64,000 bases of DNA from Chryseobacterium sp. OSA05B (GTDB taxonomy: Bacteria; Bacteroidota; Bacteroidia; Flavobacteriales; Weeksellaceae). The stretch spans positions 496,001-560,000 of the forward strand of contig NZ_JAHXYH010000001.1 of the NCBI RefSeq assembly GCF_019970065.1, read 5' to 3'. The notes beneath the pieces were generated by a model, which was not told the origin of the DNA, made no database searches, and saw nothing but the letters and a program-made list of their open reading frames with translations. A program made the position numbers and the translations under genes. Below, piece after piece: positions 17,384 through 52,414 of the stretch; position 1 is the first letter of the stretch, and each line of letters starts with the position of its first letter.

Positions 17384-17776
17384 ATGACTAAAATAAAGGA
17401 AACATCGACCAATTTTGCCAATAAAAAAGCCCTATCTGATGAGTGTCCGGAGATCTATGCTTCCAATACCATCGGCGGCCAGTGGGCGCTTGCCATCTGC
17501 TGCTACCTTATCAATGGAAAACTGAGATTCGGAGAGCTCAGAAAAAAGCTGAACAATATCACAGAACGTATGCTCACGCTACAACTCCGCAGACTTGAAG
17601 AGGATAAAATCATCACCAGAACCGTCTATGCTGAAGTTCCGCCCCGCGTGGAATATGAGCTAACAGAGATCGGATACAAGCTAAAACCTATCATCCTGGA
17701 ATTTGAAAAATGGGGTAAAGAGCATAAGGAGATTATGCGTGATAAAGAGGTCAATTCTGAGCCACAAAAGGTATAA
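17384..17776 (+). CDS. HxlR-family winged-helix transcriptional regulator
   Basis: A 130-residue HxlR/MarR-like regulator. The core reads GGQWALAICCYLINGKLRFG, ELRKKLNNITERMLTLQLRR and LEEDKIITRTVYAEVPPRVE YELT, the standard winged helix of the family. Cys23 (DECPEI) and Cys39-Cys40 (AICCYL) are present; some HxlR proteins sense electrophiles through such cysteines, but here it is only possible. It is divergent from an NAD(P)H oxidoreductase gene, its probable target, and may repress its own transcription through the nested dyads in the spacer. Confidence 0.9.
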   Translation: MTKIKETSTNFANKKALSDECPEIYASNTIGGQWALAICCYLINGKLRFGELRKKLNNITERMLTLQLRRLEEDKIITRTVYAEVPPRVEYELTEIGYKLKPIILEFEKWGKEHKEIMRDKEVNSEPQKV

Positions 17777-17782
17777 AAAGCG

Positions 17783-17858
17783 CTGAATTTAAGTTTGGGC
17801 TAAAGCCAATTGATTTTATTTTATTCATTGAACGGGCTAAAGCCCGTTCCTATTGATG
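17783..17858 (-). repeat. Double-hairpin element, AACGGGCTTTAGCCCGTT family (copy 1)
   Basis: Read on the minus strand: CAATAGG, then the palindrome AACGGGCTTTAGCCCGTT, a spacer containing AAAATAAAATCAA, the smaller palindrome GGCTTTAGCC, and AAACTTAAA..CAG. The second copy is on the opposite strand at 51845-51921. It is non-coding and lies after hxlR. Confidence 0.75.
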
Positions 17859-17930: not shown

Positions 17931-18524
17931 ATGCATAAAACTTTAATATTCCTTTTTTTGTTTTTAAGTTCTGATGTTTTATTTTCACAGAATGTCAATA
18001 AGTATGACAAAATTTTAAACATAGAAAACCTGCCATTCAACAATCATGAAGTAAGAATTTACAGGAAACATGCTATTTCTACAGGATTAGATATGTTCAG
18101 ACTGTATCAGGATCATAACAATTGGGTTGGAGAATGGTATGAAACCGTAGCCACTCAAAATCAGAAAGTACAGGTCAAAAAATCTAGTTTACATCTTTCA
18201 AACAACCCAGAGCTTGTTTGGGTAAAAATTATTGACACCGATATTTTACATCTTCCTCATTGGGAAAGTATTCAGTATAAATTAGAAAAGAAAAATAAAG
18301 AATATTTTACGGAAGATGGCGAGAATATGGTTTCAAGATCTAAGTCTGTTGTAGTGGATGGGGTTTCTTATTATGTGAAAATAAAATCAGATAAAACGGA
18401 AAACGAATTTGAGTACTATAATCCAGAATCCTATTTAAAAATTTACCCTAATGTTGATGAGTTAATTTCCTTTAAAGAATTATTGGATGTATTAAGAAGT
18501 GAATTCAAATTTTTCGATAAATAA
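17931..18524 (+). CDS. Exported protein of unknown function
   Basis: A 197-residue protein with signal peptide MHKTLIFLFLFLSSDVLFSQ, followed by a mature domain that includes NHEVRIYRKHAISTG, RLYQDHNNWVGEWYET and LHLPHWESIQYKLEKK. It has no recognised family, lipobox or T9SS sorting domain. The start at 17931 is preferred because the frame upstream lies partly in the repeat element. A second unknown gene starts 11 bases after its stop, so an operon is likely. Confidence 0.72.
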   Translation: MHKTLIFLFLFLSSDVLFSQNVNKYDKILNIENLPFNNHEVRIYRKHAISTGLDMFRLYQDHNNWVGEWYETVATQNQKVQVKKSSLHLSNNPELVWVKIIDTDILHLPHWESIQYKLEKKNKEYFTEDGENMVSRSKSVVVDGVSYYVKIKSDKTENEFEYYNPESYLKIYPNVDELISFKELLDVLRSEFKFFDK

Positions 18525-50868: not shown

Positions 50869-51666
50869 ATGAAAAAGTACTTATTTCTGGGACTGATGAG
50901 CTCTGTTGCATTCTTTAACAGCTGCAGCAGCAATGATGATAATGATGGAATCAATACCCCTTCCGAGCCAAAGGTATTGTTAAGTAAAATCACTATCGTT
51001 TACTATGACAACCCGTCCCAGCCACAGACCAGCACACAAACCCTGGAATACAACAATCAGGGTGAACTTATAAAAACATTGTCTGCATCAGGAACTTCTA
51101 CGTTTGAATACAGTAACGGGAAACCTGTAAAAATAAACTATTACAATACCAATCAGACACTGGAATACTATTCTGTTCTTAATTATAACGGAGATCAGCT
51201 GTTAAATGTTAAAGCAATCTACGCTAACCCGGATTACAACAGAACGATTACCTATAATTATAATAATAACGGACAGGTTATTTCTTCCACCCTTTGCCAA
51301 TCACAGGACTGTTCCAATCCTATTGTCGATACTTATGCCTATAATGGAAACAATATTTCATCAGAATCTTCAGAGCAAGGATCCTCTTTCAATACTAAAA
51401 CTGTTTTCTCTTATGATGATAAGCTGAACCCGTACACCAATATCAACAAATATCTGAGAATCACGATGAGAGGAGCTTATGTTTTAAGCAAAAACAATTA
51501 TCTGACAGAAAAGATAAGCTTCAAAAACAATGGTGTCTGGGAACAAACACAAACCAGAACTTCCACCATACTGTACAACAGCTCCGGTTTACCTGTTCAG
51601 GTGATCTCAAAAGAAGCTAACGGAAGTCTTTCCGCCCAGTATAATTACGAATACATTACTCAATAA
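50869..51666 (+). CDS. Tyr/Asn-rich lipoprotein with YD-like strand repeats
   Basis: A 265-residue lipoprotein (signal MKKYLFLGLMSSVAFFNSC, Cys19 lipidated, then an acidic SSNDDNDG linker). The mature part has repeated short motifs of the form xYNNxGxL/V: LEYNNQGELIKTL, FEYSNGKPVKINYYN, TYNYNNNGQVISSTL, AYNGNNISSES, LYNSSGLPVQVISK. This is the beta-strand pattern of YD/RHS-like repeats found in many Bacteroidetes surface lipoproteins. Function is unknown. It follows ahcY but has its own promoter element and terminator. Confidence 0.8.
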   Translation: MKKYLFLGLMSSVAFFNSCSSNDDNDGINTPSEPKVLLSKITIVYYDNPSQPQTSTQTLEYNNQGELIKTLSASGTSTFEYSNGKPVKINYYNTNQTLEYYSVLNYNGDQLLNVKAIYANPDYNRTITYNYNNNGQVISSTLCQSQDCSNPIVDTYAYNGNNISSESSEQGSSFNTKTVFSYDDKLNPYTNINKYLRITMRGAYVLSKNNYLTEKISFKNNGVWEQTQTRTSTILYNSSGLPVQVISKEANGSLSAQYNYEYITQ

Positions 51667-51697: not shown

Positions 51698-51844
51698 ATG
51701 AGCTGTTTCCCGCTATCCGCTCATACTCCTCGCCCCAAAGCCTGACCACTCCTGCTGTGGGGTAACCGCTTCTATCGGGGCTAAGAGATATGGAATTTTG
51801 AATGATGGATTATGAGCTATGTTTTGGATTATCATCCTTACAGG

Positions 51845-51921
51845 CATTCAATAGGAACGGACTTTAATCCGTTTTTATCTTAAAATAAAATCAACCGGCT
51901 TTAGCCAAAACTTAAAGTCAG
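51845..51921 (+). repeat. Double-hairpin element, AACGGGCTTTAGCCCGTT family (copy 2)
   Basis: It reads CAATAGG, the hairpin AACGGACTTTAATCCGTT, a spacer with AAAATAAAATCAA, the palindrome GGCTTTAGCC and AAACTTAAAGTCAG. It aligns over its whole length with copy 1 at 17783-17858 in the opposite orientation. The rest of the 51667-52021 spacer shows a terminator and no gene. Confidence 0.75.
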
Positions 51922-52021: not shown

Positions 52022-52414
52022 ATGAAAAAACAAAGAGTATCGAATGCATTCGTAGCCGCGTCTTGGGTAGCATTGGGAGCAGGAATGATAGGTTTCATTG
52101 TAGGTCTTGCCAGAGCTGAAATGCTGTTGAATGAAAAAGGATATTATTTTACCATTCTTTTGTATGGCCTTTTTGCCGTAGTCTCTCTGCAGAAAGCAGT
52201 TCGTGACAGATTAGAAAACATCCCGGTTACAGATATCTATTATGGGATCTGTTGGTTTGCAACACTTTCTTCTATTGTATTATTGGCCATCGGACTTTGG
52301 AATGCCACTATACTTCCGAGTGAAAAAGGATTTTATGCATTTGCATTTCTCCTCGCTCTTTTCGGAGCTATTTCCGTACAGAAAAATACAAGGGACAATA
52401 TGGCCCAGGAATAG
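52022..52414 (+). CDS. YiaA/YiaB-family inner-membrane protein
   Basis: A 130-residue protein built of two repeats of a two-helix unit: VAASWVALGAGMIGFIVGL with YYFTILLYGLFAVVSLQKAV, and GICWFATLSSIVLLAIGLW with GFYAFAFLLALFGAISVQK. This is the YiaAB two-helix domain duplicated. The function of the family is unknown. The units end with similar sequences (SLQKAVRDR and SVQKNTRDN), a clear internal duplication. It is followed by a long perfect hairpin. Confidence 0.83.
   Translation: MKKQRVSNAFVAASWVALGAGMIGFIVGLARAEMLLNEKGYYFTILLYGLFAVVSLQKAVRDRLENIPVTDIYYGICWFATLSSIVLLAIGLWNATILPSEKGFYAFAFLLALFGAISVQKNTRDNMAQE

Follow-up and report, generated by a model that had tools for sequence, protein, structure and literature searches.

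A predicted two-hairpin DNA element dispersed in Chryseobacterium, likely spread by a Y1 (HUH) transposase that it brackets in related genomes

The window (the whole stretch of 64,000 nucleotides analysed here, from Chryseobacterium sp. OSA05B) contains two copies of a two-hairpin element facing in opposite directions. Copy 1 (17783-17858, minus strand) is intergenic. It lies a few bases past an HxlR-type gene (17384-17776), and a likely ATG lies downstream at 17931. Copy 2 (51845-51921, plus strand) lies in the intergenic space between an ORF (50869-51666) and a YiaAB-domain gene (52022-52414). The foot TCAATAGG (17849-17856 on the minus strand in copy 1, 51848-51855 on the plus strand in copy 2) is followed by the first hairpin, which reads AACGGGC-TTTA-GCCCGTT in copy 1 (17831-17848, minus strand, loop at 17838-17841) and AACGGAC-TTTA-ATCCGTT in copy 2 (51856-51873, plus strand). 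The second hairpin, GGCTTTAGCC (17798-17807, minus strand; 51897-51906, plus strand), has the same orientation as the first. Foot, first hairpin, the segment AAAATAAAATCAA, second hairpin and tail are common to both copies. Just before copy 2, at 51702-51786 on the minus strand, there is a match to Flavo-1 RNA (RF01705, 42.2 bits, cut-off 42). This stretch matches scattered places across many genomes of the genus, so that Flavo-1, too, has the look of a repeat dispersed in many copies.

The positions, orientation and reading of the two copies, which had been predicted from the DNA sequence, were confirmed in the sequence and with a covariance model. Searched with the model built from copies of this genome, the window gave E-values of 1.9e-17 and 2.5e-16 for the two copies, values that are in part a matter of construction since the model contains both; the next best match had an E-value of 0.13. 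A 24-base pattern around the first hairpin (up to 3 mismatches) occurs twice in the window, and its mean number in 100 dinucleotide-preserving shuffles was 0. A looser 12-base core alone is a weaker indicator, its two matches in the window being equalled in 6 of the 100 shuffles. This last result would fit a chance resemblance between unrelated palindromes, but such an origin is refuted by the 24-base pattern and by the 45 repeat matches in the genome.

The original prediction had drawn attention to a G:C pair replaced by A:T on both sides of the hairpin. The change is real: G17843:C17836 of copy 1 (minus strand) has A51861:T51868 as its counterpart in copy 2. The loss of a neighbouring pair in copy 2 was also read correctly (C51862:A51867). 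In three relatives (L153, L162 and L163) the same site has the fully paired version AACGGACTTTAGTCCGTT, with this pair intact. Because the relatives keep the intact version at the same site, the lost pair looks like a young change in the lineage of this genome. Two copies alone were insufficient to separate the alternatives that had been offered, a functional RNA or DNA fold or a mobile element recognised by shape, though the compensatory change is genuine.

The repeat is not confined to these copies, and paired changes recur elsewhere, so that neither of the two conditions named in the original prediction as making a structural role unlikely applies. BLAST with copy 1 found 41 places in the genome (E<=10), and the covariance-model search suggested in the original prediction found 45 (E<=0.01). 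The model (R1) was built from 27 of the 30 copies fetched from this genome, L019, L029 and L030 being left out. Matches were present in 96 of 98 genomes of the genus, this one included (E<=0.001; up to 47 candidates scored per genome), and at the family level in 118 of 197 genomes, the genus included, and in 12 of 33 genera. The unit is about 80 bases long and consists of the foot, the first hairpin, about 25 AT-rich bases, the second hairpin GGCTTTAGCC and a tail, for example AAAACTTAA or AAAACCTAA. Its consensus can be written as ATTCAATAGG-AACGGGC-TTTA-GCCCGTT-T-(about 25 AT-rich bases)-GGCTTTAGCC-AAAACnTAAA. The letters CTTTAG occur in both hairpins on one strand, and the unit is polar. 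At one locus of a relative (L162, G022) the element and its flank are present three times in tandem, with a unit of about 200 bp. The open-licence full-text literature yielded no report of this repeat.

Most copies are intergenic: 29 of 30 lie outside the ORFs called by a simple script. Eight were found between converging, 17 between co-directional and four between diverging genes, and one inside a script-called ORF. Gene context, which the original prediction had proposed to examine with regard to gene 3' ends, displayed no clear preference (n=30). At the 17 co-directional sites the strand of the element was that of the genes in eight cases and the opposite in nine, which argues against a transcribed element. 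An Rfam search returned no family matching the repeat itself, only the nearby Flavo-1.

When the covariation test was carried out on the 27 copies of this genome, the first hairpin was paired in 94.7% of the cells, and five of its seven pairs changed on both sides. The two hairpins together had 16 double-change cells, compared with a mean of 4.1 in shuffles (equalled in 0 of 500) and 0 to 4 in slid controls. The count of further pair types was less telling, 25 of 500 shuffles reaching the observed value. The test was also run on 28 copies at the corresponding place upstream of a transposase gene in relatives (see below), which were picked by position and not by score (rows L114 and L119, without the element, were left out). 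Here pairing in the first hairpin was 98.5%, three of seven pairs changed on both sides, and seven double-change cells were counted versus 1.3 in shuffles; the pair-type count was not above shuffles (390 of 500 reached it), and the second hairpin had no double change among these 28 copies. The loop was TTTA in 27/27 and 27/28 copies of the two sets. The foot is not invariant: it was exactly CAATAGG in 19/27 and 20/28 copies, and inspection by eye showed different letters in other Bacteroidota. Among the 27 copies the second hairpin was exactly GGCTTTAGCC in 16, and an outer CCTA opposed TAGG in seven.

In a comparison of two species (16 site pairs) identity was 91% in the stems, 98% in the loop and 97% in the foot, as against 78% in the spacer and 79-84% in the flanks. 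Hairpin conservation was rejected as proof of selection, since the copies had been chosen by similarity in one genome and about half of the difference is expected anyway; only the foot and the loop stay clearly above the conservation expected without selection. Pair changes between the two species were few, with 2 double, 9 one-sided but paired, 14 unpaired in one species and 108 unchanged, a count that includes the misplaced hairpins of L016 and L029 and in which 3 of 22 pairs were unaligned.

Among 31 loci with a Y1_Tnp gene (two from this genome, 29 from a search of the genus), two, L060 and L061, sit between inverted copies of the element. Their protein of 142 aa defines a clade whose members are about 70% identical or more, compared with about 32-43% for most of the other matches listed. 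The 98 genomes of the genus fall into 39 with an open and nearly full-length gene, 8 with a broken or split gene and 51, including this one, without it. When 59 Y1_Tnp loci were searched with R1 (E<=0.01), all 108 matches fell in the 30 loci of the clade and none in the 29 others. The element was present upstream of the clade gene in 28 of 30 loci, downstream in 27 of 30, and on both sides in inverted orientation and at a fixed distance in 26 of 30. The order is forward element, about 25 bases, gene, and reversed element at the stop codon, often with extra copies outside the inner pair. In 43 of 80 fetched loci the gene lies between Sua5-like and DinB-like genes, its setting in Chryseobacterium and close relatives. 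At one locus (L101, G086) the gene and its elements are tandemly duplicated.

The clade enzyme matches PF01797, resembles IS608 TnpA in sequence (E 2.2e-6) and the TnpA proteins of ISDra2, IS608 and IS200 in fold. The HUH motif and the tyrosine are conserved; across 43 clade sequences Y114, Q118 and H122 are invariant, H121 is conserved in at least 90%, and the HUH box of the consensus is DHCH. The enzyme scored above the cut-off of the IS200-type model (NF033573, 56.3 bits, cut-off 55) and below that of the REP-associated tyrosine transposase model (NF047646, 29.4 bits, cut-off 80).

Relatives of the enzyme 68-100% identical to it (the best 80 of 283) occur in Chryseobacterium, Kaistella, Halpernia, Epilithonimonas, Flavobacterium, Algoriphagus and Lacihabitans, and also in MAGs of Chitinophagaceae and Bacteroidales. 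The outer stems beside these genes are often quite different (CTCCAGA, CAACATC, CAATAGC, CACGCCT), with the loop kept. Within 220 bp of the 80 genes, 132 of 149 perfect hairpins (stem of 7 or more, loop of 4) had the loop TTTA/TAAA, with 24 different stems, and 13 had TTCA/TGAA, compared with 2 TTTA/TAAA loops among 15 perfect hairpins in a distant control of double length. At least one TTTA/TAAA-loop hairpin was found in 71 of the 80 loci; the loci include near-duplicates, a few of the 24 stems are second hairpins, and palindromes were counted beside the gene only.

The orientation of the copies was compared with the direction of replication in three complete genomes, whose arms were delimited solely by GC skew in 20-kb samples. 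In sequence the G-rich strand equals the lagging-strand template. The forward strand of the element coincided with the G-rich strand for 144 of 177 copies: 60/73 in G020, 46/60 in G086 and 38/44 in G069, which has no clade gene. With clusters collapsed the counts were 54/64, 43/53 and 37/43 (p between 2e-8 and 6e-6). Among ORFs of at least 200 aa, 238/458, 113/227 and 146/225 lay on the G-rich strand, the last genome having a moderate bias of its own. Element orientation flips where the GC skew flips. In the OSA05B genome 24 of 28 copies follow the bias on contigs C77 (15/18 minus) and C88 (9/10 plus), the two covered by this count; C99, C110 and C121 were left out because their skew was mixed or came from one sample. 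Of the three C77 copies that run against the bias, one is copy 2 of the window, and C121 also has one such copy. Orientation follows replication and not the genes, as expected of single-strand insertion of the IS200/IS605 type. According to passages of two sources, IS200/IS605 enzymes act on the lagging-strand template (PMC5371812, PMC6006769) and the orientation of these elements recapitulates replication (PMC5371812).

The clade gene was not found in the assembly of this genome (165 contigs). At the syntenic slot (C77, about 733.2-734.0 kb) both sides match the locus of C. herbae (93% and 88%), and about 615 other bases, still bordered by element copies, take the place of the gene. An ORF of 195 aa in the slot (L016, 1583-2170, minus strand) matched no Pfam family and is membrane-protein-like by eye. 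The replaced state is shared with G048. A remnant of the transposase was sought at the slot by tblastn in the 165-contig assembly, and none was detected. In a close relative (G062), 21 of 22 examined element sites of this genome (26 were located) are also filled, which suggests that the copies are old and that movement is rare or slow. Of the 30 orthologous loci fetched for each of the two window sites, this genome's own locus included, 10 and 18 respectively contained a match to the element. Clean empty sites were not obtained there, the relatives being too diverged (nearest compared locus 84% identical), and the genome comparisons revealed no insertion or excision event. The median number of copies was 45 in genomes with the intact gene, 32.5 with a broken and 27 with an absent gene (intact versus none, p 0.004, where up to 47 candidates were scored per genome and the p value ignores the kinship of species). 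Copies persist in 49 of the 51 genomes that lack the gene, so the relationship in trans is a loose one. With a syntenic site lacking the transposase, the window copies are likely old, inherited and immobile.

These results lead us to regard the repeat, with a probability of about 0.84, as a dispersed DNA element of two predicted hairpins that was spread by the Y1 (HUH) transposase which it brackets in relatives, an enzyme not found in the present genome. Of the two possibilities originally offered, the mobile element recognised by shape is backed by the association with the transposase, by a covarying stem with a fixed loop and by the replication-strand bias; the functional RNA is not supported, given the Rfam result and the even split of strands at co-directional sites. 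We infer that the enzyme would bind the hairpins on the lagging-strand template exposed at replication forks, recognising loop, foot and shape and not the sequence of the stem, and would cut and, acting in trans, insert a copied unit at another place. The transposase gene itself would stay at one chromosomal site, next to the Sua5-like and DinB-like genes, and in this genome, where that site has no transposase, the window copies would be relics unable to move.

A structure selected at the RNA level, either a functional RNA or a transcription terminator or mRNA-end structure, with the association with the transposase only secondary, would account for the covarying stem in both alignments, for the eight of 30 copies between converging genes and for a similarity between two species that is higher in the hairpins than in the spacer. 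However, the extra stem conservation can largely stem from the picking of copies recognisable in this genome, the strand follows replication (144/177) and not gene direction (eight copies with the genes, nine against them), and the copies bracket one transposase clade only; together with the lack of an Rfam match to the repeat this makes such an explanation improbable. It is quite improbable, too, that another enzyme, for example another Y1 transposase of this genome, spread the copies and that the clade merely gained them at its ends. Such a history would agree with the persistence of copies in 49 of the 51 (of 98) genus genomes that lack the clade, and two other Y1_Tnp genes do exist in this genome (L031 and L032). 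These were rejected as mobilisers: they are enclosed by inverted repeats of 24 and 28 nt with different palindromes (GTCCCGAAGGGAC and GCTCCGTAGGAGC), and no element lies within the fetched 1.5 kb. Another enzyme is also disfavoured by the fixed-distance bracketing in 26 of 30 clade loci and by its recurrence in further groups of Bacteroidota, where relatives of the gene are bracketed by hairpins that differ in the stem but keep the loop.

Mobilisation by the bracketed transposase being the preferred reading, the system can be compared with known ones. By analogy it works like REP/RAYT, the enzyme being of IS200 type and the two-hairpin unit having polarity. The resemblance to REP and TnpA_REP of E. 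coli, Pseudomonas and Haemophilus lies in dispersed intergenic hairpins in many copies and, as in a REPtron, in a Y1 transposase gene of low copy number with these hairpins on its flanks, here in relatives (26/30) and not in the genome itself. The first hairpin strikingly resembles the H. influenzae REP GTAGGGTGGGCTTTAGCCCACC as given in a passage of PMC2817692. We do not file it as REP/RAYT because the GT[AG]G foot of canonical REPs is absent (CAATAGG being in its place), the unit consists of two hairpins in the same orientation, and the enzyme, of IS200 and not REP type by its scores, resembles TnpA_Y1 subclass 1.2. In IS608 the ends likewise have two hairpins in one orientation, and with the IS200/IS605 family (IS608, ISDra2) the system shares transposase fold and sequence and the replication orientation bias. 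Unlike in that family, the gene is enclosed by two complete inverted units rather than by the hairpins of a single one, and instead of moving with its end hairpins it mostly keeps one conserved chromosomal site (same neighbours in 43/80).

Passages of Quentin et al. (2018, PMC6006769) describe subclass 1.2 as generally lacking typical terminal IS200 structures, and tabulate these as 'no'. By its Y---Q--HH motif, the WQ, its size (142 versus 148 aa), its few copies and its occurrence in Bacteroidota, the clade enzyme resembles that subclass as characterised there; it differs in the terminal structures and dispersed copies found here and in the HUH box (DHCH versus DH[IV]H). REPINs, as described in part of PMC3116915, are also composites of two hairpins, but inverted ones, whereas here both read CTTTAG on one strand. 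The GTAG- and CGTC-tagged palindromes in passages of PMC3733652 are similarly short, dispersed and tagged at one end, and CGTC repeats are reported there from Bacteroidetes among other phyla; these are said to have no dedicated transposase, while the present repeat has the tag CAATAGG and a candidate transposase.

The spread of REP-type repeats was called a central but unresolved issue in a 2011 passage (PMC3116915). A repeat family and a candidate substrate, characterised by the TTTA loop, the CAATAGG foot and a covarying stem, are now tied to a transposase type described as generally without such structures, and natural genomes with the enzyme intact, broken or absent are available for direct comparison. 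Canonical REPINs are nearly symmetric, so the strand of insertion is hard to read from them, whereas the polar unit records a replication-strand bias. We lean slightly towards a broader proposal, in which a Bacteroidota-wide IS200-type lineage no longer moves itself and copies, in trans, a separate unit of two hairpins, which it inserts in the lagging-strand template and recognises chiefly by the TTTA loop and the foot. If so, stems would drift freely and every host lineage would get its own palindrome, the system would stand, still living, midway between insertion sequences and REP systems, and element orientation would be a readable record of the insertion strand.

Some minor observations concern Y1 genes and their surroundings. 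Several other Y1 loci have yet other flanking palindromes, so every lineage of Y1 genes may possess a hairpin of its own. One genome (G012, L033) has fifteen Y1_Tnp matches, among them two groups of six that scored identically, a pattern that looks like a recently active IS200-type element. A passage of PMC11194056 mentions a RayT gene that lies no more than 10 kb from abeS in clinical Chryseobacterium. At the clade loci L092-L121 a strongly conserved TATTTTTG was seen about 20-30 bp before the transposase start, similar to the Bacteroidota -7 promoter box, whose consensus is TAnnTTTG.
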